A stretch of 63,582 bases of DNA from a virus. Shown piece after piece: positions 24,625 through 54,857 of this stretch. Position 1 is the first letter of the stretch; the number at the start of each line of letters is the position of its first letter. Where the stretch lies: IMG/VR virus record IMGVR_UViG_3300046011_007723, positions 1-63,582 of that record; one strand, 5' to 3'. A model generated the notes under the pieces. That model was not told the DNA's origin, did no database searches, and saw nothing but the letters and a program-made list of their open reading frames with translations. The position numbers and the translations under genes were made by a program.

Positions 24625-27600
24625 TTAGTAAAAATATCTTCTAATTGCTAACGCATATACAACATCAGATGGACGTACATCAGATTTTGTGAATGTTTTA
24701 GTAAAATCTCTTTTGTGAAGTGTACCAACATCAGAATAATAATATCTAAACAAATCAGGCACGGATTTTTCTAAAATTGCATTATCGCCAGTGCTTACTC
24801 CACCCATAGCAAAATACTGAATTTCAGTTGAGTTTGGTAATACAAAATCATTATACCAATCCGCATTTTCATTTAATTCATCAATCCAATCTTTTGCTTC
24901 TTGGAAAGAATTTACTTGCATAGACCAAGGGTGTCTCGAAACTCTATAGCTTGAGCCATCAGAATATTTAAATAAATTTGCCTTTGGTACAACAATTAAC
25001 CCATCATCATACTGGATATCCGGTTTGTTATCAAGTTGACCTATCCTCATCCCCTCTATCCAAAATTTACTATTATTTTTATCATTAAAAATAATAGAAG
25101 ATACATTTTGTATCCCTGAAGGGACATCAATACTCCACTTTAAATTTTCCCCGTGTTGTATATTTGTTGTGTCAATGTTAAACTTAACAACGCGATTTGT
25201 AGCCCAAATAGAATTATCTTTAGTGGTAACGCTAATTGTTGCATTTGATTTCTCTTCTTTAATAGACAAAAATGCATTTAAAGAAGAACTACCATCTGTT
25301 GGTCTATTTAAGAAAAATCCAGCGCTATAGACCCCATCCATATTTGATATAGTGGATAGCGCCTTAAACTTAAATTCATAATGACAAGTTGCTCCAGGTT
25401 GATCATATGTTAAATTTCTTAATGCTGGGTTAGCTGAAATACCAACCTCAATATTCGTAATGTCAGAAACAGACACTCCAATATATTCAACAAGGTCAGA
25501 ACTATAGGTTAACGATGTTGGTTTGATATTATTGTACCCAGAAACCGTAAAATATTCACCAGTTTTAACTTGGGTTATCGAGTTTCTATTTATATCAAAG
25601 AATTCTATAGTTTGATGTGGTTTAGATGAATTAACAATATAAGCCTTTGACGTTAATGGCGAACCGTTAGTTGCATATTCAGCTGTACTTGGTTTAACCG
25701 TTAATGTGATTTCTGTCGTTGAGTCAACAATACTATTATCGTCTAATTTAACCAAAACATAAGATTTACGCGCTAATTTTACTCCAGCGTAACTATGCGT
25801 TGATGCTTCTGAATAGTTATAATGTGACTCTGTAAAATCATCAAAAGCTTCAACTTTAAATTTTCTGCCATTATTTGATACAACGGTATAATCGTATGTA
25901 TCTGTAACAATAGCATTAGTTGGAGTTATTGTAAACTTAACGACATCTCCTTCTTTCTTAGCATTATTTATAGATTGTGAATCATTTTCAATAGTGTATG
26001 ATTTTGGTAACACTATAATTTTCTGACATTCAACAGGGTAAATAACATCACCAGAATTATCTGAGGGGACAAATTTTATTCTGCACTTTTTATTGACAGA
26101 AGAAAGGAATCCAGTTGGTACAGTGTATCTAAACGCAGCAACATTATCTGTGTCCAAATTTGATTGGGTAAACTGCAACAAATTACTGACTGGAGTTAAT
26201 GCATTTCCATATTTGTCTGTATAAGTTATCCCTGAAATCGCAACAAAACTTCCAGTGCTATAATCAAATAAACCTACAGAATAAGAAGTATCTTTTATTC
26301 TTGGCGTAACAACAACATAATAAGATAAATTTTCAAAAATTTCATGTGAACTATCAATAGAAACCCCTTTGTTGGTGTCTGTAAATGTTGATGCTATGAT
26401 ATCACCATTCATAATTTTAGCCGTAATAAATCCAGCAGTATCAGTTTTAGACTTAACTTTTATCGTTACAACATTTGTTCCTGTTAAAGAAATAGCAGGA
26501 GTAATAACACCTAATGAACTAATGTTAGTCAAAGGAGTATCATTCACAGTAACATCGATATCACTAAACGTAATCCCAGACAAAGGTAAAGTCAAAGTAT
26601 GTACATCAGACGGCAAGAAAAACTCATTAGGTGTAAACGTCATGATAGATGCCGCGCCATTGTAAATTGACCTTGCTGGCGATGCTTCATATATTTTAAT
26701 GGCGTTAACGCCCGTATTTGTTGAGATAGATGATGTACCGGTGATAGTTGAACTTGTAATGTTAGCTGTAATTGTACCAATAGTGTAGCTGTTAGATGTT
26801 ACATTAATAACAACAGCGTCGTTTCCACTCAACTCTGGGCAACCTGATAACGCGCCGGTTGATGGTGTTATACCAACTGGTGTGCCGTTAACTTTAACAA
26901 CAATATCTCCAGCAACTAAAGTTTTTAATGGCAGTTTTAACGTATGTATATCAGTTGACAAAAAATGCTCTGGTGTAAACGTTATTGTTTCATTTTTACC
27001 ATAATACACGGTTGTATTACCTGAAACAGAATACGATTTTTTGATTCCAGAATTAGTTGTCAATGCTGTATAATTTGTAATATTAGAATCAGCAACATTG
27101 GTCAAAACAGCTTTAACCGTACCAACAGCCCAACTGTTTGTCGTTACGTTTATTGTTACAGTATTATTAAATTGTAATGTTGGGCAACCTGATAGTGTGC
27201 CGTTTGATGATGTTATTGTCACTGGTTCACCGTTAACAGTTACAGAAACATCAGATGCAACTAAATTTGTTAATGGAAGTGTTAACGTATGTGTATCAGT
27301 TGACACGAAATTCAACGGCGTAAATGTTATCGTTGTATTCAACCCATTCATTATATTAGCTTGAGTTGTTGGGGTATATGAATACGATTTAACAATACCT
27401 TTATTTGTTGTCACATAAGTATTTGATGTGATTCCAGAATCAGCAACATTGGTCAAAACAGCTTTAACCGTACCAATCGCATTGCTACTAGATGTAACCA
27501 CAACATTAACAGTATTATTAAATTGTAATGTTGGGCAACCTGATAACGCGCCGGATGGTGTTATTGTCACTGGTGTTCCATTAACAGTTACAGAAACATC

Positions 27601-30600
27601 AGTTGCAACTAAATCCACCAGCGGCAGTTTTAACGTATGTATATCAGTTGACACGAAATTCAACGGCGTAAATGTTATCGTTGTGTTCGACCCATTCATT
27701 ATATTAGCTTGAGTTGTTGGGGTAAAATTAAACTCTCTAAAATTCGCGCTGTTGATAGTAACCAATTGACTTGCGTTAGGACGATCCGCACTTCCAAAAA
27801 ATTCAATTTTTGGTGTAATGGTCCCAGAAGCCCAACTATTAGATGTAACCACAACAATAACAGCGCCGTTTCCAGTTAATGCTGGGCAACCTGATAACGC
27901 GCCGGTTGACGGTGTTATACCAACTGTTGCGCCGTTAACAGTTACAGAAACATCAGTTGCAACTAAACCCACCAGCGGCAGTGTTAACGTATGTATATCA
28001 GTTGATGCGAAATTCGACGGCGTAAATGTTATTGTTGATGTTCCTGTATTAGTAAGAGCATAAAAAGTTCTTGAAGACTTATAATATTTAAGAGGAAGCG
28101 CTTCACTTGTTACAGTTACCGCATTTGATTTACTAAATGAGGTTGTGTCAGCAGATTTAATGATATAACATATTAATGCGAATTTATCATTGGCTACAAC
28201 ACCGGCTGATGCATTGACCTTAAAATTAAAAATCCCGTTTGTATATGATGTCACATCATATAATATTGCGGTTGATGCAAGTTCAGTATTCAACGCAGTA
28301 TTTGTCGTTGTTTTGGACGTAGAGCTAACCGCAGAACCGTTTGCTGTTACTGTAAAGTAAGAACCATGCGTAGACAAATCTTTTGCATCTGTAGAATTTC
28401 CTGCTACAGGAGTAATAGCAAGATATAATTTATCTGAACCGCTAAGAACAACAGATGTTTCCACAGCAATATCTGACGTTGTTCCAACTATAACACTAAA
28501 CGCATTCTCAGTTTTATTTTTCCCGTTTCTATGGATACTCAAAGATATAGGAACCACAGGTTTGGTACTAACGCTCAAGTCTTGAGATTTTGTTAACTGA
28601 ATAAGAACTGTAGAACTTGTGACAGAATTTATTTTTACATTTATAATGTTACCTGTTGTTGTGGTTGCGGTGTTCTTTTTAATCCAGATTTCTTTAGAAA
28701 TCTTTTTATTAGAATCAACTTTACCAACAACACGTATAGAGGATTCAGGGTTTACTTCTGCAATTAAACCTAATGTATTGCCGGTTGACGTGATATCAAA
28801 TGTTACTGTGTCATCTTTATTCAAATTAGGAACATCAATTTCAACTCTAATTCGGTAAGAGTTAGTTGAATCTGGAAGTTCTAAACCAGTTATTTTAGTT
28901 TCTGTTGCATCATAAAAATTAATATTTGCTGTTGGTGTATTGACAGCAACTAATGAAATTTCAGAGTTTGATGCAGATGCCACAGTGCTAGAAGAATCAG
29001 TGACCGTTAATACAATTTGTTTGGTTGATGCAATACCTTTAGAATTTCTTGTAATAGGTATAGATAACGAACCGCCTACTGCAATGCTACCACTTCCACT
29101 ATAAGTTGAAAAATAATCAGAAATGTTACTAGCATCAGCAAACGCAATAGACCAAGTAACATTTCTAGCAGTGTTTTCATTTAAAATAGTTACGTTATAA
29201 TTTACAGTTCGACCAACATCAATAGTTGAACTGTCTTTCGTAATTTTAAAGGTTCTTGTTGCGTTATTCAATAACAATGAATCTTTAGCAGATAAATTAC
29301 GAGAAGTTGGTTTAATTTCTGCATTTAGTGTAATATTACTAGGCACACCAAGACTAAAACCAACATCAACTAAATTAGAAACAGCAAGCAATTCAGCAGA
29401 AGTCATTGTTGTAGAAAATGTGTTTGTATTACCAGCAAACACATAAACACCAGCCGCAGATGGTACAGGATTTGGTGTAATATTAATCGAAAATATTTCA
29501 GATGTTGGAAAGTTACTTTGGGCGATTAACAATTTAGCAGAAGAAGCCGTACCGCTTGTGCTAGTAGGGTTAATCGTAGTCAAATCTCCAGTATTTGTGC
29601 TATTTCTAAATGAAGTTGACAACGTTGGCTGGACAGATTTTGTTAAATTAAAATTGTTAGATGTCAGCGTATTTTTGCCATTGTATAGCAAAGAAACATT
29701 AAAGGTTTTGTCTGTTGTAGCTAATCGATTAGCTACAGCAGTGAGGCTAAATGTCAATGTTCCTGTTCCATCTAATACTCCAGATGTTTTATTCAATGTG
29801 TATTCATTAGGCGCAAGATTTGATACCTTAATTTCTGTTATTTTGGTCCCAGCAGCAGCTGCGCCATAACTTGAAGTTACAGAAAAATTAATTGTTCCTG
29901 CATCCGTTATACTTGAATTAGCAGTTTTATCCGCAGATATTGTTGTTGTTTCTTCGTTGTTTTGGATGTAGCAAATAGAATTTATGCCTTTGCCTTTATT
30001 TGCGCCAGTTAACTCCAATTTTAACGTTTTTGCCGCTGTCAATACCAGACTGTTTGAAACTGTAACAGAAACGGTTAATGTAGTTCCAGTGAACGAAGTT
30101 ATAACAGGTGAAAGCACATAGCCGGTTAAAGTCGTAATATCAACGTCATTGGCAGTGATAACAAATGGAATCGTGTCAGATAGCGCATTTGTTGTATAAT
30201 GGTTCGTTTCTAAAGCGAATGTTATTCTAGACCCTTGTGATACGTTAGAAGAAAATGCGTTATTTGATAGTTTGTAATATTTCGTATCAAAATTACCTAT
30301 GATTTTAACTACATGCTCTTTGGAATTACCAGATGCATCAGTGAAAACATATCGATACTGTCCATTTTTATCTTTATAAACAGTTTCTCCTGCCACATCG
30401 TCAGCAGATACGCTTCTAGTCAATACATGCGTAGGGTTAGCGTTTGATGTATTAAAAGGGTTTGCTGTTGTAAATGACGATGTGATATCCACTTCAGCTG
30501 CACTGCCAATTTTCTTATAAACTTTATATGAAATTGGAATATCAGCTTCAGCATTATTAGATTGGAACGACACATTAATTGTATCAGTTGTTGCTACTGA

Positions 30601-33600
30601 AACTGGTCCACTCACAGAATATGCTGTTTTAACAGGGTTCAACAATTTAATAGTAGAGGATAAAGATGACCCATATAAAAATTCAGGATATTTCGTAATG
30701 TCTCTGCTAGATTTATTATGTGGCGTAACCGTTAGCGTAATTTTTCTAGCAGCTTGAGATGCCCCATCATCTGTTACTTTCAATTTAATGACTGCTTTAC
30801 CAGCTGAATCAACGGCAAACGTAAACGATGTCAAAGATGTAATTGCTGTTCCATTTAAAGTTTTAGAATCAAAGGTAGCCGTTCCATCTGTTACAACAAC
30901 TGTGCCAGTAAAGTCACCTTTCAAATCGTAATTGATTGCGTTGAATGTAAAGGTAAAGTATTCTCCTTCACTCACAACATAACTAGAAGGTTCAATAGTA
31001 TAAGTCGCAGTTGGTTTAGGGACTTTCAATTCAGTTACAACAGCATCGCCAACTTGGTCTCCAGTCACAACACTAATTGGTTTTGTATCAGCATATTTTG
31101 CGCTCATATCAACATAATAGTTAACAGAAACATATGATGATGCGTATTCTTTACCTGCTGGATTATTAGAGAAAGTGATTACAAAGGTAGATCCTTCTTT
31201 CCCTTGAGGAATAACAATATAGCCGGTTGCGTTGCCAGAATCATCGGTGGTTGGTTGTTGAGTTAGGAACGTAGAACCAGTCAAATTTGTTACAAACCCA
31301 TCTTCTTGTAATTCTTTTCCAAAGAAATAATATAATTTTGTGTTAGCCAACATATTGGTGACTTTATATTGTATAACACGCTCACGTGTAACCGGAATAA
31401 TATTCTTACTGAAATTATAGGTTGTTCCTGACACGATTTTATTTTTAGATGTTGCAATATCAATAAAATCCGCGTCGGCAGAAGTAATAGCAGAAGTTGA
31501 TAAGGTAGCGCCTGATTTCGGATCCCAAGCATTCCATACCGTAACCGGCACAAGATCTGATGTTCCAGCTAATTGTTTAATTGTATCTGCATCATTAACA
31601 GGCAACAATTCTTTGACCCAATGGTCTGTGTCAGGTTTTAACACAGCAGAACCAGAAGCTGTTGTTACGTTATACGGGTTAACAGATACTGTTGTTGAGT
31701 ACGAGTTAACGCCGGTTAATTTTGTTGACGTATAAGGTAAAGTGATTGTGTTAGAGTTAATACCAATTCCAGTTGTAGCTAAATTAGCATGAGCTGTTTT
31801 AGTGTAAAATTTTGGTCTTAATTCATTTTTGTCATAATCAATCTCAGTTTGCATATCTGGATTGGTGACGTCAGCAACATTTTTACCTTGGAACGCATCA
31901 ACTAAGAATCCGTTGTTGAATAATGGAGTGCCATTATCATCAGTAAAGGTTTTTGATGAGGTATCTTTTTCAAGCATTGATAATGAAGTATAGTATTCAA
32001 CATTTTCAATTCTGCCTTCCAAAACGCCGATATCTTTCATCGTATATCTTTTGTTTTTAACTAAAGATAATTTTGTAGATTTTTCATCATCAGTATAAGC
32101 GTCATAGGTAATAGAGCAAATATCCATAGCGTCTGGATTAGACGCTGGATTAATAGGTTGTCTAGCAGGAATACCTTGTATGATTTGATATTTACCTGTT
32201 TTGTCTAAAGATAATTTGTCAATTCTACCGAGGTAATAGTCAACATCTAAAATAGCATTAGAGAATGGTAAAATAAATGTATCAAACCCAGCACCATTTT
32301 CTTTTTGAACAGGTCTAAAATCTAAACAGTTTCTTAGTTTATATGTTGAGAATGAAACGCTGTCGTAATAATTGCCAATATCAGAATAAGAAACCGCAAT
32401 AGTATTATTTACAACAAGAGGTCCTTCGCCAGAATGTACATAATAATCAAACACGGCTAAAATTGATGTTGTAGTAGTAAAGGCGGTTTTTCTACTTATA
32501 AATCCATTGCCATAATATGAATCAGTTTGACCGTTATCAATTTGGAATGTAGAACCAATATTTTCATATGCAGTTGTTCCTAACGTTGTACCAGAAATAT
32601 CGTATAGTTTACCGTTACGCATAACAACAGAATTTGCACTATATGATACTAATTCATCATATGCCCCTGCATAAATTTTACTTCCAATTTCATAAGCGCC
32701 CGTAAATTTATGAATATCAGATACACCCAAACTTTGCGTAGCTGCAGAATCCTCTAAAAACGTGACCTTTTTGCCATAATTAGAAACTAATGTTTTTGTT
32801 CTTACAGCCTGACCAGACATGTTTATAGTTGCTATGATATCAACAACACCATTGAATGATGCATCATTAAAATCAAAACTGATAGAAGAATTCGTATCTG
32901 GATTTGTGCTAACTGTAATATCTATTTGCGATAAATCCAAAACAGAATTAACCACATATCCATTTCCAGAAGATAAGGATAATAGAGCAATTGTGTAATT
33001 AATATTGTTTGATGTCCCTGAAGATGGAACAAAATCTTTTGTTAATGAATCTGACGTCAACGAACACACGCCGCCGTAAACTGGAACAGATTTGAACAAT
33101 TTTTTTGTTTCATATGAAATGCTAGAAACAGTTTTAATATTACCAAGTGGAATTGGAAACACCAATAGTCTATTTGCGGTATCTGATATTTTAGCTGATG
33201 TTAATGTTGCTATAAATTCTCCTGTTTTTTCTCCAATTGAAATCACAGAAGAAAAAGAATCTGACGTTAACGATACATCATCAAGATAAAGCTGGTATTC
33301 GCCATATGAAACTGGAATAAGGTTAATGACCCTTGCTGTCCCAATAATAGTGCCTGTGCTATTATACAGATTTACACTTGAAGAAGATGTGATATCAGGG
33401 AGACTTCCTGATATTGAACCTACAGTAACATAGTTTCCATACTGCGTTGCAACAGTATAATCTGTTGTGCTTGCAAATGTTCTTGGTTTAGTTAATTGAA
33501 TAGAACTAACACCATTTTTTTCAATCTCATATCCTTTGACGTAAGCCTTACCCGCTGCTACATTTAGTGTCAATAATGTTTCGTCTGGGTTAGCCTTTAC

Positions 33601-34779
33601 CGTAGGCAATAAACCATTTACAATATAATCTCCAGATTCATCGTATGTTCTACGAGCAAATATATCCTCAAGATTAGAATAGATAGGTAGACGTTGGTCT
33701 GATTGAACAACGCCATTTTTAATGTGGCAAATATCAATGAAATCTTCAGAAGATAAAGATTGTTCTTGATATCTAACGGCGGTTGCTTCTAACGATATAA
33801 AGTATCTATCTGCACCTGGAGCAGCATAATTATATGAACCAAACGAAGGATCTAATAACGTAGCATCAGAATCTGCTGTTATGATTGACTCTATAGCCTT
33901 TAATCCAATAACAGTGGATAATGAAACCGTAAAACCTATTGCATCAGTTACTAAAGTGTTTGCGCTGCTTTTAAGAACTAGGTTTGTGTTATCAGCAATC
34001 GATAAAACTGTTCCAATGAGTTTATTATCAATTGTAAAAATATCATCCCCAACACTTAATTCTGTTGTGAATAATGTACCAACGCCGGTAATATTAGCAG
34101 AACTTGTTGATGCTGTTATTGTTCCCGCGTAAAGCCTTTTAACATATTTAGAAACAACAATAGTTTGGCTCGGGCAATATACAAAAGAATTTTTTGTGTA
34201 AAATATGCCTTCGTCAATACCAAATAAAACAGAATTTCCAGATACAGTATCGCCTGTTGCTTCAGTAGAAAACGATCTAAAAATAGAGGTTGTTCCGATA
34301 ACTGGATTTGGGACAGAATACACATCAAGACGAACATTATTGCTGACGTATTTAGATGATGACCCTGCTGACCCACCAGAAATTAATGTCGCATAAATTG
34401 TTTTTGGATCAGTGTCTGTTTTTTGTGTAACCGCCTTAATCAAATATTTTCTATTATCTGAGTTAACTACATCTTCGCTGTTAACGATTAGATATTTTCC
34501 GATAATATTATTGTCAAAAACAATAGCGCCGTTATTGAACGATTCAGCAATTTTAAAATATGTTACATTAAAATCAACTGTGTGTGCTGCACCATCAACC
34601 ACTGAACCATCTTCAAAAATATGGTCAGCAAATTTCGTTACTTGATTTTGAAGTATTGATTGTATCTGTGTTAATTCTCTAGCCTGAACAGCTGCTCCAG
34701 GTTGGAAAAGTATTTTATGAAATCCTTTTTTATGATCATAATCATCATAATAAGGATCTATGTTCAAATTCATTGGCAT
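24625..34779 (-). CDS. Giant baseplate-periphery protein (DUF4815 N-terminus plus Ig-like repeats)
   Basis: A 3384-residue protein, one of the largest in such phages. Residues 1-60 ('NLNIDPYYDDYDHKKGFHKI…FQPGAAVQARELTQIQSILQ') are the diagnostic DUF4815 start; this region continues to about 1090 and replaces T4 gp10-type proteins. A VTG-x-GT-x-F module occurs at about 215-275. From about 1220 on, the protein is a chain of Ig/Calx-beta-like domains ('YVVSEGEYFTFTFNA', 'NPVKTAYSVSG…'), including five close 115-residue repeats. The C-terminal 150 residues are distinct, with a Trp-rich helical patch 'AKDWIDELNENADWYNDF'. Likely a baseplate-anchored surface-reaching arm. A CTAAATA element lies 39 bp upstream. 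Confidence 0.85.
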   Translation of the reverse strand: MPMNLNIDPYYDDYDHKKGFHKILFQPGAAVQARELTQIQSILQNQVTKFADHIFEDGSVVDGAAHTVDFNVTYFKIAESFNNGAIVFDNNIIGKYLIVNSEDVVNSDNRKYLIKAVTQKTDTDPKTIYATLISGGSAGSSSKYVSNNVRLDVYSVPNPVIGTTSIFRSFSTEATGDTVSGNSVLFGIDEGIFYTKNSFVYCPSQTIVVSKYVKRLYAGTITASTSSANITGVGTLFTTELSVGDDIFTIDNKLIGTVLSIADNTNLVLKSSANTLVTDAIGFTVSLSTVIGLKAIESIITADSDATLLDPSFGSYNYAAPGADRYFISLEATAVRYQEQSLSSEDFIDICHIKNGVVQSDQRLPIYSNLEDIFARRTYDESGDYIVNGLLPTVKANPDETLLTLNVAAGKAYVKGYEIEKNGVSSIQLTKPRTFASTTDYTVATQYGNYVTVGSISGSLPDITSSSSVNLYNSTGTIIGTARVINLIPVSYGEYQLYLDDVSLTSDSFSSVISIGEKTGEFIATLTSAKISDTANRLLVFPIPLGNIKTVSSISYETKKLFKSVPVYGGVCSLTSDSLTKDFVPSSGTSNNINYTIALLSLSSGNGYVVNSVLDLSQIDITVSTNPDTNSSISFDFNDASFNGVVDIIATINMSGQAVRTKTLVSNYGKKVTFLEDSAATQSLGVSDIHKFTGAYEIGSKIYAGAYDELVSYSANSVVMRNGKLYDISGTTLGTTAYENIGSTFQIDNGQTDSYYGNGFISRKTAFTTTTSILAVFDYYVHSGEGPLVVNNTIAVSYSDIGNYYDSVSFSTYKLRNCLDFRPVQKENGAGFDTFILPFSNAILDVDYYLGRIDKLSLDKTGKYQIIQGIPARQPINPASNPDAMDICSITYDAYTDDEKSTKLSLVKNKRYTMKDIGVLEGRIENVEYYTSLSMLEKDTSSKTFTDDNGTPLFNNGFLVDAFQGKNVADVTNPDMQTEIDYDKNELRPKFYTKTAHANLATTGIGINSNTITLPYTSTKLTGVNSYSTTVSVNPYNVTTASGSAVLKPDTDHWVKELLPVNDADTIKQLAGTSDLVPVTVWNAWDPKSGATLSTSAITSADADFIDIATSKNKIVSGTTYNFSKNIIPVTRERVIQYKVTNMLANTKLYYFFGKELQEDGFVTNLTGSTFLTQQPTTDDSGNATGYIVIPQGKEGSTFVITFSNNPAGKEYASSYVSVNYYVDMSAKYADTKPISVVTGDQVGDAVVTELKVPKPTATYTIEPSSYVVSEGEYFTFTFNAINYDLKGDFTGTVVVTDGTATFDSKTLNGTAITSLTSFTFAVDSAGKAVIKLKVTDDGASQAARKITLTVTPHNKSSRDITKYPEFLYGSSLSSTIKLLNPVKTAYSVSGPVSVATTDTINVSFQSNNAEADIPISYKVYKKIGSAAEVDITSSFTTANPFNTSNANPTHVLTRSVSADDVAGETVYKDKNGQYRYVFTDASGNSKEHVVKIIGNFDTKYYKLSNNAFSSNVSQGSRITFALETNHYTTNALSDTIPFVITANDVDITTLTGYVLSPVITSFTGTTLTVSVTVSNSLVLTAAKTLKLELTGANKGKGINSICYIQNNEETTTISADKTANSSITDAGTINFSVTSSYGAAAAGTKITEIKVSNLAPNEYTLNKTSGVLDGTGTLTFSLTAVANRLATTDKTFNVSLLYNGKNTLTSNNFNLTKSVQPTLSTSFRNSTNTGDLTTINPTSTSGTASSAKLLIAQSNFPTSEIFSINITPNPVPSAAGVYVFAGNTNTFSTTMTSAELLAVSNLVDVGFSLGVPSNITLNAEIKPTSRNLSAKDSLLLNNATRTFKITKDSSTIDVGRTVNYNVTILNENTARNVTWSIAFADASNISDYFSTYSGSGSIAVGGSLSIPITRNSKGIASTKQIVLTVTDSSSTVASASNSEISLVAVNTPTANINFYDATETKITGLELPDSTNSYRIRVEIDVPNLNKDDTVTFDITSTGNTLGLIAEVNPESSIRVVGKVDSNKKISKEIWIKKNTATTTTGNIINVKINSVTSSTVLIQLTKSQDLSVSTKPVVPISLSIHRNGKNKTENAFSVIVGTTSDIAVETSVVLSGSDKLYLAITPVAGNSTDAKDLSTHGSYFTVTANGSAVSSTSKTTTNTALNTELASTAILYDVTSYTNGIFNFKVNASAGVVANDKFALICYIIKSADTTSFSKSNAVTVTSEALPLKYYKSSRTFYALTNTGTSTITFTPSNFASTDIHTLTLPLVGLVATDVSVTVNGATVGITPSTGALSGCPALTGNGAVIVVVTSNSWASGTITPKIEFFGSADRPNASQLVTINSANFREFNFTPTTQANIMNGSNTTITFTPLNFVSTDIHTLKLPLVDLVATDVSVTVNGTPVTITPSGALSGCPTLQFNNTVNVVVTSSSNAIGTVKAVLTNVADSGITSNTYVTTNKGIVKSYSYTPTTQANIMNGLNTTITFTPLNFVSTDTHTLTLPLTNLVASDVSVTVNGEPVTITSSNGTLSGCPTLQFNNTVTINVTTNSWAVGTVKAVLTNVADSNITNYTALTTNSGIKKSYSVSGNTTVYYGKNETITFTPEHFLSTDIHTLKLPLKTLVAGDIVVKVNGTPVGITPSTGALSGCPELSGNDAVVINVTSNSYTIGTITANITSSTITGTSSISTNTGVNAIKIYEASPARSIYNGAASIMTFTPNEFFLPSDVHTLTLPLSGITFSDIDVTVNDTPLTNISSLGVITPAISLTGTNVVTIKVKSKTDTAGFITAKIMNGDIIASTFTDTNKGVSIDSSHEIFENLSYYVVVTPRIKDTSYSVGLFDYSTGSFVAISGITYTDKYGNALTPVSNLLQFTQSNLDTDNVAAFRYTVPTGFLSSVNKKCRIKFVPSDNSGDVIYPVECQKIIVLPKSYTIENDSQSINNAKKEGDVVKFTITPTNAIVTDTYDYTVVSNNGRKFKVEAFDDFTESHYNYSEASTHSYAGVKLARKSYVLVKLDDNSIVDSTTEITLTVKPSTAEYATNGSPLTSKAYIVNSSKPHQTIEFFDINRNSITQVKTGEYFTVSGYNNIKPTSLTYSSDLVEYIGVSVSDITNIEVGISANPALRNLTYDQPGATCHYEFKFKALSTISNMDGVYSAGFFLNRPTDGSSSLNAFLSIKEEKSNATISVTTKDNSIWATNRVVKFNIDTTNIQHGENLKWSIDVPSGIQNVSSIIFNDKNNSKFWIEGMRIGQLDNKPDIQYDDGLIVVPKANLFKYSDGSSYRVSRHPWSMQVNSFQEAKDWIDELNENADWYNDFVLPNSTEIQYFAMGGVSTGDNAILEKSVPDLFRYYYSDVGTLHKRDFTKTFTKSDVRPSDVVYALAIRRYFY
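26330..28085 (-). repeat. Five tandem ~115-residue Ig-like units in the giant protein
   Basis: Each unit carries 'T-I-T-F-T-P-x-x-F-x-S-T-D-x-H-T-L-x-L-P-L', then 'D-V-x-V-T-V-N-G-x-P-V', then 'L-S-G-C-P-x-L' and ends '…TN-G-I-x-K-S-Y'. Units 2 and 3 are almost identical in protein and share long DNA identity (27100-27720). Unit 5 is the most diverged. Confidence 0.85.
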
Positions 34780-48841: not shown

Positions 48842-49309
48842 ATGAGAAAAACTAGATTTCCAAAACCAAGAAAATGGTTCCCCAAAAACCCAGAAAAGTA
48901 TGTTGGTGATGTAACTAATATCATATCAAGAAGCAGTTGGGAAACCAAATTTTTAAATTGGGCAGATAATAATCCTGCTATAATTTCATATTCATCTGAA
49001 GAAACGGTTATACCTTACATATCTATAACGGATATGAAACCACATAGATATTATCCTGATTTTAAAATTAAGGTAAAAGATGCACAAGGTAATATTAAAA
49101 CCTATATTGTTGAAATTAAGCCTAATTCACAAAGAAATCCTCCTATATATAAAGGAAAGAAAACCCAAAGATACATAAATGAATGTTCTACGTTTATGGT
49201 TAACCAATCAAAATGGAAAGCGGCAGAAAGTTTTTGTAAAGAACGTGGGTTAGGGTTCATTGTATTAGATGAATATGATTTAGGTATAGCACAAAGGAAA
49301 ACAAAATGA
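48842..49309 (+). CDS. gp4: Head completion protein gp4
   Basis: The start is placed at the ATG at 48842 because the resulting 155-residue protein matches T4 gp4 in length (150) and layout. An ATG at 48803 would add 13 residues not seen in relatives. Diagnostic: 'RKWFPKNPEKYVGD', 'SRSSWETKFLNWADNNPAI', 'SEETVIPYISITDMKPHRYYPDF', 'IVEIKPNSQ', and 'QSKWKAAESFCKERGLGF'. The E…PDF…EIK arrangement is a PD-(D/E)XK-type nuclease-like core. gp4 finishes the filled head before tail joining. It is coupled by ATGA to the next gene. Confidence 0.92.
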   Translation: MRKTRFPKPRKWFPKNPEKYVGDVTNIISRSSWETKFLNWADNNPAIISYSSEETVIPYISITDMKPHRYYPDFKIKVKDAQGNIKTYIVEIKPNSQRNPPIYKGKKTQRYINECSTFMVNQSKWKAAESFCKERGLGFIVLDEYDLGIAQRKTK

Positions 49310-50049
49310 TACAGCAAGATGTTGAAAGTCCAAGTCCGGCTGCAATTAAAAAACTAAGAACAAAAAATGGGTTAACCTTACAAAAGGCGGCAACTTTAGC
49401 CGGCGTTGCGTCATCTACATTTGAGAAAATGGAGAATGGCGTTATTAAAATGTCAGGCGATACTTGGGATAAACTGAATCGTAAGACAGCGGTAAAGCCT
49501 AATATAAAAGCCACCTTAGAAACATCAACTAATTATGAGTTGAAAGATTTGGTTTTAAAATCTAAAGCGTGGTTTAATTCTGAAGCAAAATCATTAGCAG
49601 CATCAACCACATTAAAGGTTAGCGGTAGAGCAACTGGTTCTCCTGTTCCTGGAGAAATGTATTCATTTTACTATGATGCTAAACACAAAGATACTTTACC
49701 TTACTGGGATAAATTTCCATTGGTATTTCCTTTCAGAATTATGCCTGATGGGTTTTACGGTATTAATTTACATTACTTACATTACAAAGAACGGATTATA
49801 TTATTAGACGCATTGGATGCGGTTGCTACATCCCCTAGAAAAGAAGTATCAAAAAGATTACAAATTTCGTATTCAATATTACAGCAGGCGGCTAAAAATA
49901 AAAAATTCGAAAAATGTATTCATAGATATTTGTTTGCTCATTTGAAAACCCCGTTAAAAAAGATACATTCAGATAAATGGATTTTAAGCGCGATGCTACC
50001 AAACGAAATGTTTGTTGGTGCGACGACTAAACAAATATGGAGTTTATAG
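49306..50049 (+). CDS. gp2: DNA end protector gp2-like with N-terminal HTH
   Basis: A 247-residue protein. Residues about 8-55 look like an XRE-type helix-turn-helix ('AIKKLRTKNGLTLQKAATLAGVASSTFEKMENG'). Residues about 110-247 match the gp2-like family of T4-type phages: 'GEMYSFYYDAKHKDTLPYWDKFPLVFPF', 'DGFYGINLHYLHYKERI', 'KCIHRYLFAHL' and 'IHSDKWILSAMLPNEMF'. In T4, gp2 binds DNA ends in the head and protects them from RecBCD, and genes 2 and 4 are neighbours as here. The HTH is not expected in gp2. The gp2 assignment is good but rests on motif memory. Confidence 0.78.
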   Translation: MIQQDVESPSPAAIKKLRTKNGLTLQKAATLAGVASSTFEKMENGVIKMSGDTWDKLNRKTAVKPNIKATLETSTNYELKDLVLKSKAWFNSEAKSLAASTTLKVSGRATGSPVPGEMYSFYYDAKHKDTLPYWDKFPLVFPFRIMPDGFYGINLHYLHYKERIILLDALDAVATSPRKEVSKRLQISYSILQQAAKNKKFEKCIHRYLFAHLKTPLKKIHSDKWILSAMLPNEMFVGATTKQIWSL

Positions 50050-51067: not shown

Positions 51068-51781
51068 ATGTTACCACAACCTAAAAAAAGCGCCCCAGTT
51101 TATACAACAAAAATTCCATCTTCTGGGGAAACAATTAAATTTCATCCATTTTTAGTACAGGATGAAAAGGCATTATTGATTGCTCAAGAATCAGAAGATC
51201 TTGATGTAATGATTGATACAATTTTAGACGTAATAAGCCGTTGCGTTCTAAGCCCACTTGACACTGATAAGTTAGCTATATTTGACATCGAATACATATT
51301 CCTTCAAATTAGAGCAAAATCGGTAGGTGAAACCGCAGAGTTAATATTTTCATGTGATGATTGTGTTACACCAACATCTAAGGTTAAAATCAGTTTCAAT
51401 TTAGAAAACATCAACGTTGAGAAAAACCCTAAGCATACAAAACGAATTTCTTTATTTGATGACGTAGGCGTTATGATGAAATACCCTGCGTACAAATCAT
51501 TGAAGTTGCTGGATTCAAATTTGAAAGATACAGAAATGGAATTCGATTTGGTAATTGATAGCGTTGATTACATTTATGATAAAGAAGAAATACATCACAT
51601 CTCAGATTACACTAAAGAAGAAGTTGTTGATTTCTTTAACGCCTTAACAAAAGAAAACTTCAACAAGGTTTATGAATTTTTTGAAACCATGCCACAAATG
51701 GTTCAACGGGTAAAATACAAATGTCCTGATTGCGGTAAAGCGCATAATAAAATTATAGAAGGGATCGAATATTTTTTTTAA
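51068..51781 (+). CDS. gp26: Baseplate hub/tail assembly protein gp26 (T4_baseplate family)
   Basis: A 237-residue protein (T4: 208). Typical features: 'TKIPSSGETIKFHPFLVQDEKALLIAQES', 'FDIEYIFLQIRAKSVGE', a first C-x-x-C ('SCDDC', about 99-102), 'MMKYPAYKS', 'VVDFFNALTKENFNKVYEFFETMP' and a second C-x-x-C-G-x-x-H ('CPDCGKAH') near the C-terminus. The two Cys pairs could bind zinc. It ends in a run of eight T (51772-51779) reading TTT-TTT-TAA. A -1 slip there would continue into the next gene. Confidence 0.9.
   Translation: MLPQPKKSAPVYTTKIPSSGETIKFHPFLVQDEKALLIAQESEDLDVMIDTILDVISRCVLSPLDTDKLAIFDIEYIFLQIRAKSVGETAELIFSCDDCVTPTSKVKISFNLENINVEKNPKHTKRISLFDDVGVMMKYPAYKSLKLLDSNLKDTEMEFDLVIDSVDYIYDKEEIHHISDYTKEEVVDFFNALTKENFNKVYEFFETMPQMVQRVKYKCPDCGKAHNKIIEGIEYFF
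51772..51781 (+). promoter_or_regulatory. Possible -1 ribosomal frameshift site (T-TTT-TTT)
   Basis: Zero-frame codons TAT-TTT-TTT-TAA end gp26. The heptamer T-TTT-TTT (51772-51778) allows P- and A-site tRNAs to re-pair one base back. The next codon would be TTA, then ATG-GCA-ATG of the 61-aa gene in the same frame. The product would be a gp26-61aa fusion of about 299 residues just upstream of the tape measure. Confidence 0.5.
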
Positions 51782-51966
51782 TGGCAATGAGCCACGATAA
51801 TTTGCTGAATTATATGAAGACGAATTTTGCCCTTATTCAATATCATAAATACAGCATAGGCGACATTGAAAGATTAATGCCATTTGAAAGGGAAATATAC
51901 GTTTCGTTGTTAATTATGCATTTGAAAGAAGAAAAGGAACGAATAGAAAGGAATAAAAGAAAATGA
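51781..51966 (+). CDS. Small tail/baseplate assembly protein (gp51-like position)
   Basis: A 61-residue helical protein: 'LNYMKTNFALIQYHKYSIGDIERLMPFEREIYVSLLIMHLKEEKER'. Marine T4-like phages encode the same short protein between gp26 and the tape measure, often labelled baseplate hub/gp51; it is much shorter than T4 gp51 (249), so homology is uncertain. Its ATG overlaps the gp26 stop and its own stop overlaps the tape measure start (ATGA). Position and size are those of the T half of lambda G/GT-type chaperones. Confidence 0.75.
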   Translation: MAMSHDNLLNYMKTNFALIQYHKYSIGDIERLMPFEREIYVSLLIMHLKEEKERIERNKRK

Positions 51967-54857
51967 GTAAACGGGATAAAAGTTTGACCGCATTACTGGA
52001 TAAGCAGGCAAAACAGGTGTCTGATATCAAAGAAGATACTAATGAACTAAAAGAAAAAGCTGTAGAGTTAAAGGAAGAAATAAAAGTAGCCACCGGAACT
52101 GTCACAGGCTCACCTATTCAAACAGGAAGTAAAATTTTAAATGCCACTGCCGATTTACATTCATTAGTTGATAATTCATTTGAGAATACAGATTTCGGTA
52201 AACTTTTATCTAACATCGATAAAGGCATCAACGATAAAAATAGTAATTTATTAAAATTGATGGAATCCTTAAAGGGCAAATTTTCTTCATCTTTTATTAA
52301 TAATACAACAAATTCGAATTCAGTATCTGATAATACAACAAATTTAAACGATAAATTTACAACAAATAATCAAAAATTTGAACCTCCGATTAGAAGAGAA
52401 CCACCAAGTAGGTTCTTTTCTGGTATTGATGCGTTTCAGAAAAAGCTTGGTGTAAAAGATTATTCTATGCTGAGTAAGCGTATAAGTAATGCCTTAGCAT
52501 TTACAAAATACGATTTGAGCGAAAAACAAAAGCCTGAATTTGAACAGGTTATACCTGAAAAGAAAGCAAATAAAAGCGCAGTAAAAGCTGTAGAATCATC
52601 TGTACAGTTTTCTCCGTTAGCTAAACTTGCCGCCGATACAAAATCACATAAGGCTTATGTTGATAAGGTATTAAAGGAAAATCCTAAGCTTTTGAAAAAG
52701 GGTAATGTTGAAGAAGTAAAAGGCAAACTGTTAGCTGAGTCAAAGGAACTGAGAAAACAGGCTAAAGAATATGTTGAGTTTGAAAAAGATTTAAAGGTAT
52801 TAAAAGAAAACAACTTAACACAAGACAGTAAATTGATTAAGACCATCGAAACTAAGATGGAAAAAATCAAAAAGTATGTTGAAAAAACTAATCGATTAGA
52901 AATAAAAGAAGCGCCGGTAAAGGCTGAATCAGTAAAACCAGAATCAGTAAAACCAGAATCAGTAAAACCAGAATCAGTAAAACCAGAATCGGTAGACAAG
53001 GTTAAACCAGAATTTAAACCAGAATCAGTAAAACCAGAATCAGTAAAACCAGAATCAGTAAAACCAGAATCGGTAGACAAGGTTAAACCAGAATTTAAAC
53101 CAGAATCAGTAGACAAGGTTAAACCAGAATCAGTAAAACCAGAATACATAGACAAGGTTAAACCAGAATCAGTAGACAAGGTTAAACCAGAATCAGTAAA
53201 TTCATTTACATCTTTAACTGAAGCCGAGCATAAAGACAGCAACACTAAGTCTCAAGAAGAAATCGACAATTCTAAATTCCAAGAAAACCTACTTAATCAA
53301 AATAAACAGCAGTTAGACCTATCGAGTAAACAATATAAAACCTCTGATGAACAATTAAAAGTTCAAAATAAGATGTATGAGATTTTACAGAGATTTGAAA
53401 GTAAAGGTTTTGGTGGAGGAAACAACAAAAATGATGATTCAGTATTTGATGATTTTTTAGGCGGTGAAAAAAGAGACCGAACCCCTAAACGAAATCCTAC
53501 AAGAACTTCTAGAAGAAACCCAAAAGGAAATATATTAAAACGTGGAGCAGCTAATGTTGCGCGTGTAGTAGGAGGTATGGCGGTAGGTGCGGCAACAGCT
53601 GGTAAAGCTGTTCTAGAGTCCGGTAAAGCCGCTGTTGGTGCTATTGGGGCAGCTGCTAAAGGAATACCAACTAAAGCCGTAGAGCTTGCCGAGACTGCTA
53701 AGGGTTCTGTGTCAAAGGTAGCAGGTGCAGCTAAAACTGGTGTTGCTAAAGTAGTAAAATCTGAAGCGTTAAAAGATACAGGTAAACTGATATCAGAATC
53801 TATAGCAAAACGCCTACCGAAAGCCGCATTGAAAGCCGCTGGAAAATCTATCCCAGGAATAGGTGCATTAATAGGATTAGGTGCTGCTGCTGTCTCATTA
53901 GCTGAAGGTGATAAGGTAGCCGCCGGATTAGAAGCTGTCAGTGGATTAGGTTCAGCGGCAACTGCTATTCCTGCTACAGCGGCATTAGTCGCTAAAGAAG
54001 TTTATGAAGATGTTTACGGAATTAAACCGGAAGAAGACCCAGAAGCTGGAACCAGATTAACTGAAGTCAAAAACCAAGTTTGGGAAGAGATGAAAAAGTT
54101 AACTGGCACTGAAGAACCAAAAGCTGAGGAAACACCTAAAGAAGACGCGGGTAAACTATTAGAAGGAATTAAACCGGAAGATAAACCAAATGAAACATCA
54201 GAAATGGTTGCTGGTGTTCCTGTTATTAAAGGTCAACCGTTAACAAAAGAACAAATTTCAGCAACAGATATAGCAATAAAATTAGGTAATAAGCCATCAG
54301 TAGATGTTAAAGAAGCATATGATTTATCTAAAGGAAATAAAGGTGAGAATACAGCTAGTGTAAACGGTCAACCGGTAAAGGCTGAACCTGCAACAAAAGA
54401 TTACAATACTGAGTTTAAGAAGGTTGAGGAAGAACGAGTCAAAGCCGCAAAACAGTTATCTGAATCATCAAATACTGAAGAAGATATAAAAATCTTTAAA
54501 GAACAATTAAGTAAGGTTGAAGATATGAAAGTTAACCTACTTGCTGAAAGGGATAATAAGCCTAAAGACCAAATTAGAAAAATGTTGGAAGATAATGAAG
54601 ACCCAACGACTGCTAGATTTTATCAATTAAAACCTACTGCCGAAAAAGTTGATTCATCAAGGGAATTAATTAAAGCAAGTACAGAGTCTGAAGATGCTAG
54701 AATGGCGGCGGGTAATAACGGTGATTCTGGTACGACTATTATATCACCAACAACGATAACAAACTCTAATCAAACTAATGTAGTAAGAAAGGATGTTAAA
54801 AATAATGATGGTTCGTTAAACCGGTTGTTTGATAGCCGATACAAATTTAATTCATAA
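51963..54857 (+). CDS. Tape measure / hub length-determining protein (gp29-like)
   Basis: A 964-residue protein. Residues 1-45 form a coiled coil ('LDKQAKQVSDIKEDTNELKEKAVELKEEIK'). Residues about 320-415 are a PESVK/PESVDKV repeat array, and residues about 510-690 are Ala/Gly-rich with hydrophobic stretches ('IPGIGALIGLGAAAVSLAEGDKVAAGLEAVSGLG'). The C-terminus ends with '…TTIISPTTITNSNQTNVV…' and 'LNRLFDSRYKFNS', as in structural/tape-measure proteins of related phages. T4 gp29 has 590 residues, so a longer tail is expected if it scales. It is last in the plus-strand operon. Confidence 0.75.
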   Translation: MSKRDKSLTALLDKQAKQVSDIKEDTNELKEKAVELKEEIKVATGTVTGSPIQTGSKILNATADLHSLVDNSFENTDFGKLLSNIDKGINDKNSNLLKLMESLKGKFSSSFINNTTNSNSVSDNTTNLNDKFTTNNQKFEPPIRREPPSRFFSGIDAFQKKLGVKDYSMLSKRISNALAFTKYDLSEKQKPEFEQVIPEKKANKSAVKAVESSVQFSPLAKLAADTKSHKAYVDKVLKENPKLLKKGNVEEVKGKLLAESKELRKQAKEYVEFEKDLKVLKENNLTQDSKLIKTIETKMEKIKKYVEKTNRLEIKEAPVKAESVKPESVKPESVKPESVKPESVDKVKPEFKPESVKPESVKPESVKPESVDKVKPEFKPESVDKVKPESVKPEYIDKVKPESVDKVKPESVNSFTSLTEAEHKDSNTKSQEEIDNSKFQENLLNQNKQQLDLSSKQYKTSDEQLKVQNKMYEILQRFESKGFGGGNNKNDDSVFDDFLGGEKRDRTPKRNPTRTSRRNPKGNILKRGAANVARVVGGMAVGAATAGKAVLESGKAAVGAIGAAAKGIPTKAVELAETAKGSVSKVAGAAKTGVAKVVKSEALKDTGKLISESIAKRLPKAALKAAGKSIPGIGALIGLGAAAVSLAEGDKVAAGLEAVSGLGSAATAIPATAALVAKEVYEDVYGIKPEEDPEAGTRLTEVKNQVWEEMKKLTGTEEPKAEETPKEDAGKLLEGIKPEDKPNETSEMVAGVPVIKGQPLTKEQISATDIAIKLGNKPSVDVKEAYDLSKGNKGENTASVNGQPVKAEPATKDYNTEFKKVEEERVKAAKQLSESSNTEEDIKIFKEQLSKVEDMKVNLLAERDNKPKDQIRKMLEDNEDPTTARFYQLKPTAEKVDSSRELIKASTESEDARMAAGNNGDSGTTIISPTTITNSNQTNVVRKDVKNNDGSLNRLFDSRYKFNS
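52920..53205 (+). repeat. PESVK tandem repeats (15-bp unit) in the tape measure
   Basis: A unit equivalent to CCAGAATCAGTAAAA (PESVK) is repeated more than ten times, with PESVDKV and PEFK variants, and a higher-order block occurs twice (about 52956-53095). The near-identical DNA copies make this a slippage-prone, probably length-variable linker. Confidence 0.9.

Follow-up and report, generated by a model that had tools for sequence, protein, structure and literature searches.

A gene 26 homologue in the genome of an uncultured phage, T4-like as judged by its genes, ends in a run of T residues that overlaps the start of a small open reading frame (ORF) in the −1 frame. This layout raises the question of whether the two frames encode separate proteins or are joined by ribosomes that slip at the overlap. 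We analysed the 63,582 nucleotides of IMG/VR record IMGVR_UViG_3300046011_007723 (hereafter, the window), in which the neighbourhood of the site is T4-like, with profile matches to gp53, gp48, gp4, gp2, tail tube and small terminase homologues. The features at the junction are as follows.

51068–51781, + strand: gp26, the putative short tail-assembly chaperone (TAC-N), 237 aa; matches to PF12322 and phrog_150, AlphaFold2 model.
51772–51778, + strand: slip heptamer T-TTT-TTT, with the P- and A-site Phe codons at 51773–51778; identified from the sequence and from conservation in 51 of 57 junctions.
51778–51966, + strand: −1 frame extension, a gp51-like C-terminal part of 62 aa after the shift; matches to phrog_634 and phrog_150.
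51781–51966, + strand: 61-aa ORF read from its own ATG, overlapping the gp26 stop; unlikely to be the main product, with no ATG in 30 of 51 junctions.
51963–54857, + strand: large ORF of 964 aa, the probable tape measure gene on position and size only.

The last codons of gp26 are TAT (51770–51772), TTT (51773–51775), TTT (51776–51778) and TAA (51779–51781), and the eight-T run spans 51772–51779. A tandem −1 slip at 51772–51778 would bring TTA (51778–51780) into the reading frame, followed by ATG GCA ATG from 51781, so that the residues after the shift would read Leu-Met-Ala-Met. The post-slip frame is that of the 61-aa ORF, and the fusion would comprise 237 + 62 = 299 aa. The original prediction, which had described the TAT-TTT-TTT-TAA ending, the eight-T run with its heptamer and a fusion of about 299 aa, is exact on each of these points. 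Among the 48 ORFs of at least 100 aa in the window (18,872 codons), T-TTT-TTY occurs in frame only twice, and just the gp26 occurrence lies near the end of its ORF. The AT-rich window also holds 102 in-frame slippery motifs of the general form X-XXY-YYZ. Because such motifs are common there, a single slip site in the window is little proof; it is conservation across relatives that places the gp26 site beyond chance.

A nucleotide search in phage records returned just a 53-base match, so we used proteins to find relatives and gathered 80 IMG/VR loci by gp26 protein similarity alone. Two scans with other gp26 queries yielded few or no new loci. Both parts were readable in 77 entries, two of which are the window's own sequence. 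The small frame lies at −1 relative to gp26 in 77/77, and every one has T-TTT-TTY either immediately before the gp26 stop or one codon further upstream. Alignment of related junctions, the check proposed in the original prediction, thus found the T run and the −1 relation conserved throughout, with spaced, non-overlapping junctions, which would have spoken against the shift, in none of the readable entries. To these we added isolates, and the site is present in every one of them: Kyanoviridae cyanophages, Pelagibacter phages, Sinorhizobium phiN3, Agrobacterium OLIVR5, Stenotrophomonas Marzo, Xanthomonas X1, Cronobacter S13, Vibrio phi-ST2, Aeromonas AS-yj, Pseudomonas pf16 and Acidovorax ACP17. 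From these comparisons, the same slip device appears to be conserved in marine and other T4-like phages. Removal of near-duplicates left 57 non-redundant junctions, 51 of which carry T-TTT-TTY. The six heptamer-free junctions comprise four Ackermannviridae-like cases, one T4-type gp26 without a −1 partner and one with a 1-nt deletion. One relative (L119, around 2256) has a slip site one T shorter than near-identical phages; the loss leads into the +1 frame, not to a natural fusion, and could reflect a sequencing error in the homopolymer.

Two properties of these junctions bear on how the downstream frame is read. The six bases T-TTT-TT are invariant in 51/51 heptamer junctions, including both wobble positions (51772 and 51775), which keep T even where TTC is the preferred Phe codon. 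The remaining wobble columns of the last ten gp26 codons all vary; the most conserved reaches 0.91 of 2 bits and is the Shine–Dalgarno-like position discussed below. Against each gene's own codon use, the invariance of the two wobble positions has log10 P values of −14.6 and −11.9, uncorrected for relatedness. Past the site, the −1 frame stays open for 56–67 codons and the 0 frame for 0–8 codons; in Mosig, gp26 continues for about nine codons beyond the slip site before its stop. Differences in the −1 segment are 0.556, 0.358 and 0.611 at codon positions 1, 2 and 3, which indicates protein-level conservation of this frame starting at the slip site. Within the open −1 frame, as far as 12 codons beyond the site, 30 of the 51 junctions have no ATG and 15 have no ATG, GTG or TTG. 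A conserved stretch of the small frame that lacks a start codon must be entered from upstream. In annotation records, the small gene begins at one or another internal ATG or is absent (ACG-2014j, S13 and AS-yj), and the frameshift is marked in none of the annotation records read for relatives.

Profile searches connect both parts to the T4 hub proteins. gp26 matches PF12322 (T4_baseplate; E 6e-59) and phrog_150 (baseplate hub; E 2.5e-59), and the 61-aa frame matches phrog_634 (gp51, 'baseplate hub assembly catalyst'; E 2e-25). The small frame additionally aligns with the end of the phrog_150 profile (positions 236–281 of 282), which suggests that the phrog_150 family already includes fused members. 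The phrog_150 score is 237 bits for the virtual fusion compared with 202 for gp26 alone, and the fusion spans the junction in its matches to both phrog_150 (4–286) and phrog_634 (180–298). T4 gp51 (249 aa) aligns with the virtual-fusion profile from end to end (1–249/1–295; E 1e-14), whereas T4 gp26 (208 aa) aligns with the short part only (E 2e-25); Acinetobacter PhT2 gives the same pattern. The −1 reading of the downstream DNA matches the T4 gp51 C terminus (E 1e-6), and its 0 and +1 readings gave no match to it. T4 gp26 and T4 gp51 both match PF12322, as does gp26 of the window. The arrangement differs: T4 has separate genes 26 and 51 on opposite strands, a two-gene layout shared by Aeromonas 44RR, whereas the frames overlap in the window lineage. 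T4 gp26 ends in GAG-TTC-TTT-GAG, without the heptamer. T4 gp26 and gp51 are hub assembly chaperones (PMC3004832), and the correspondence of T4 gp26 to the short form and of T4 gp51 to the fusion identifies gp26 and gp26-51 as putative short and long tail-assembly chaperones. Most likely, the chaperone pair comes from two genes in T4 and, as the comparison suggests, from slippage in the window lineage.

On this evidence, gp26 and the 61-aa frame very probably constitute one gene that yields a tail-assembly chaperone pair by −1 slippage. Most ribosomes would stop at the TAA at 51779 and release the short protein gp26 (TAC-N). A minority would slip one base back with two Phe-tRNAs on T-TTT-TTT (51772–51778), pass the gp26 stop and produce the 299-aa long form gp26-51 (TAC-NC). 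If the pair works as G/GT does in lambda, the tape measure protein would be coated by the short form, and the extension would serve to bring in tail or hub proteins. We infer the slippage event, its efficiency and these binding roles from comparative evidence; the conserved slip site and frame, the absence of start codons and the alignment of the fusion with T4 gp51 over its full length are direct observations.

The main alternative is that the 61-aa protein is a separate product, made by reinitiation at the ATG at 51781 through coupling on the TAATG that overlaps the gp26 stop (51779–51781). This overlap in the window is a point against slippage, as reinitiation could also yield the 61-aa protein on its own. 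An ATG at the junction recurs in a few relatives (L005, L040 and L060), TAATG is found in some Ackermannviridae-like phages, including 1.255.O, K452 and LIMEstone1, and many annotators list a separate gp51. Coupling is nevertheless improbable, as the junction and its vicinity lack an ATG in most relatives, and the 15 junctions without any start keep a frame that is protein-conserved from the slip site. The distant gp26 stop in Mosig and the equivalence of T4 gp51 to the full-length fusion also argue against it. The ATG overlapping the stop, raised in the original prediction as a possible sole role of the T run, is incidental, given that most relatives lack it.

Slippage on the T run by RNA polymerase would be another route to the fusion, through mRNAs with an extra U that are translated conventionally. 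An inserted base in the run leads to the same frame as a −1 shift, and T8 in the window and several close relatives is long enough for some transcriptional slippage. However, most relatives, including the TTC-preferring Stenotrophomonas, Xanthomonas and Agrobacterium phages, have T6 followed by C, which is too short for efficient slippage by the polymerase; moreover, the heptamer is invariant in its codon phasing and the Shine–Dalgarno-like bias upstream fits stimulation of ribosomes. Transcriptional slippage, which had been raised in the original prediction, is therefore unlikely for the family but may occur at the T8 of the window; overall, we regard it as very improbable. That the T run is a by-product of a conserved Phe-Phe ending in an AT-rich phage has next to no probability. 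The Phe-Phe ending is indeed conserved and the window is AT-rich, but this account is contradicted by the wobble T in 51/51 junctions, found in TTC-preferring phages and matched by no other column in the last ten codons, and it leaves the missing starts of the conserved downstream frame unexplained.

Ribosomal slippage, our preferred reading, might be aided by elements on either side of the heptamer, for which the window offers two candidates.

51758–51763, + strand: GAAGGG, a weak form of a Shine–Dalgarno-like element, 8 nt before the heptamer; probable stimulator, from the GAG bias in relatives.
51782–51794, + strand: small hairpin TGGC-AATGA-GCCA, 4 nt after the heptamer; possible stimulator, weak, from the 81-nt fold.

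The Glu codon located 15 bases before the first Phe is GAG in 23/30 junctions, compared with 132/672 elsewhere in the same genes (P 1e-10). In many relatives, the result is GAGGG or GGAGGG, about 10 nt ahead of the heptamer; in the window, it is the weaker GAAGGG. In dnaX, a Shine–Dalgarno-like element upstream at a spacing of about 10 nt helps −1 shifting. On the downstream side, the 81-nt fold past the site in the window has a z-score of −2.0 (8 of 200 shuffles as good) and consists of the 4-bp hairpin and a modest stem. Across relatives, the 80 nt after the site have a mean fold z-score of −1.42, with 29% below −2, the lowest of the 22 positions scanned. We found no consensus RNA structure common to all relatives, stems varying by lineage and register; only the average downstream stability stands out among them, not any shared stem. 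An Rfam search of the window junction gave no match. The weakness of both elements in the window is a point against the slippage model. In S-PM2 (L082), a perfect 14-bp hairpin (TGTTCTATAATAAT/ATTATTATAGAACA; z −8.4) lies directly past the slip site.

The Ackermannviridae junctions vary. Det7, CBA120, K751, IME250 and Bue1 have a gp51-like −1 frame, no ATG at the junction and a gp26 that ends in ATT-TTC-ATT-TAA, and SUMAE and TSW001 have CTT-TTC near the gp26 end. The junction reads TAATG in 1.255.O, K452, LIMEstone1, Cygsa01 and GR28A, where translational coupling is possible. In the Ackermannviridae loci of our set (L125–L129 and L096), the −1 frame is conserved at the gp26 stop without a heptamer, and most have no start codon at the junction. 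We tentatively suggest, with slightly less than even confidence, a composite dnaX-like signal made up of GGAGGG at fixed spacing, T-TTT-TTY and lineage-specific stems, with the same −1 fusion arising in Ackermannviridae (Det7, CBA120, K751 and Bue1) without a heptamer at AUU-UUC-AUU-UAA, where a single Phe-tRNA may be what slips. If true, the heptamer-free Ackermannviridae site would represent a type of −1 site that has been little described.

The locus resembles lambda gpG/gpGT in having a short protein with a predicted −1 extension and a slip site where the short gene ends; in lambda the tape measure gene comes next, and here the next ORF is a probable tape measure gene. The slip site is T-TTT-TTY here and G-GGA-AAG in lambda, gp26 is longer than the lambda short protein and we know of no sequence relation between the gp26 family and lambda gpG/gpGT. 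The G/GT-type interpretation in the original prediction gains support from the match of the fusion to T4 gp51 over its full length. The lambda work (Levin 1993; Xu 2004) is covered in a 2016 review, which in its account of the G-T shift calls it conserved in long-tailed phages 'except T4' (PMC5009743). Contrary to the initial view that no such shift is described for the gp26 family, these genes for chaperones were identified by Vladimirov, Gautam and Davidson (2022), whose work is cited in two papers for poly-T slip sites and for a two-gene solution (PMC10885494 and PMC12846349). As summarized in the PRFect paper (PMC10885494), the set in some T4-like phages is one short copy and one long fusion copy; the Adele paper (PMC12846349) cites the same work for poly-T sequences as recognized −1 signals in the TAC-N genes of T4-like phages. 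Judged by these summaries, the gene family is the same and the phenomenon already known, so that the window adds a case; possible additions to the known picture are the Shine–Dalgarno-like element, the downstream RNA structure and the heptamer-free Ackermannviridae sites. The chaperone frameshift of Vandenendeviridae and Andersonviridae (GTTTTT; PMC12846349) likewise uses a T-rich −1 site ahead of the tape measure gene, and there too the part beyond the shift was misannotated as a gene of its own; these are different phage families from that of the window, and the likeness is one of layout.

The AlphaFold2 model of gp26 is a confident one, with a pLDDT of 90.5. In a structure search with this model, the HK97 chaperone 2OB9 was among the ten best PDB matches but not significant (best E 0.87, best probability 0.69, TM 0.52 by target). 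Named predicted viral structural relatives were mostly baseplate hub subunits or hub assembly chaperones, and a PDB sequence search with the gp26 profile gave nothing significant. Together, the comparisons settle the most likely identity of the gp26/gp51 pair in a marine phage group of very high abundance, and many public gp51 annotations are probably wrong, either starting at an internal ATG or missing the frame altogether. Frameshifting and two separate genes would be alternative routes to the same chaperone pair within one family, and the junctions, a natural series of slip sites that diverged long ago, come with two candidate stimulators that a simple reporter could test.

In most relatives, a large divergent ORF without a tape-measure family match lies directly 3′ of the putative frameshift pair. 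The ORF at 51963–54857 gave no family match in PF and phrog profile searches and no clear sequence relation to T4 gp29; its position and size make it the probable tape measure gene. At 52926–53198 it contains tandem repeats of a 15-base unit (GAATCAGTAAAACCA) in about 10 copies, which sit within an 81-base unit, encode KPESVKPES repeats and could vary tape measure length. Elsewhere in the window, the homologue of the DNA end protector gp2 (49306–50049) has an extra N-terminal HTH_3 domain (residues 14–64; E 4e-5) followed by its phrog_429 part (66–245), and a very large ORF of about 3,380 codons occupies 24628–34779 on the − strand.
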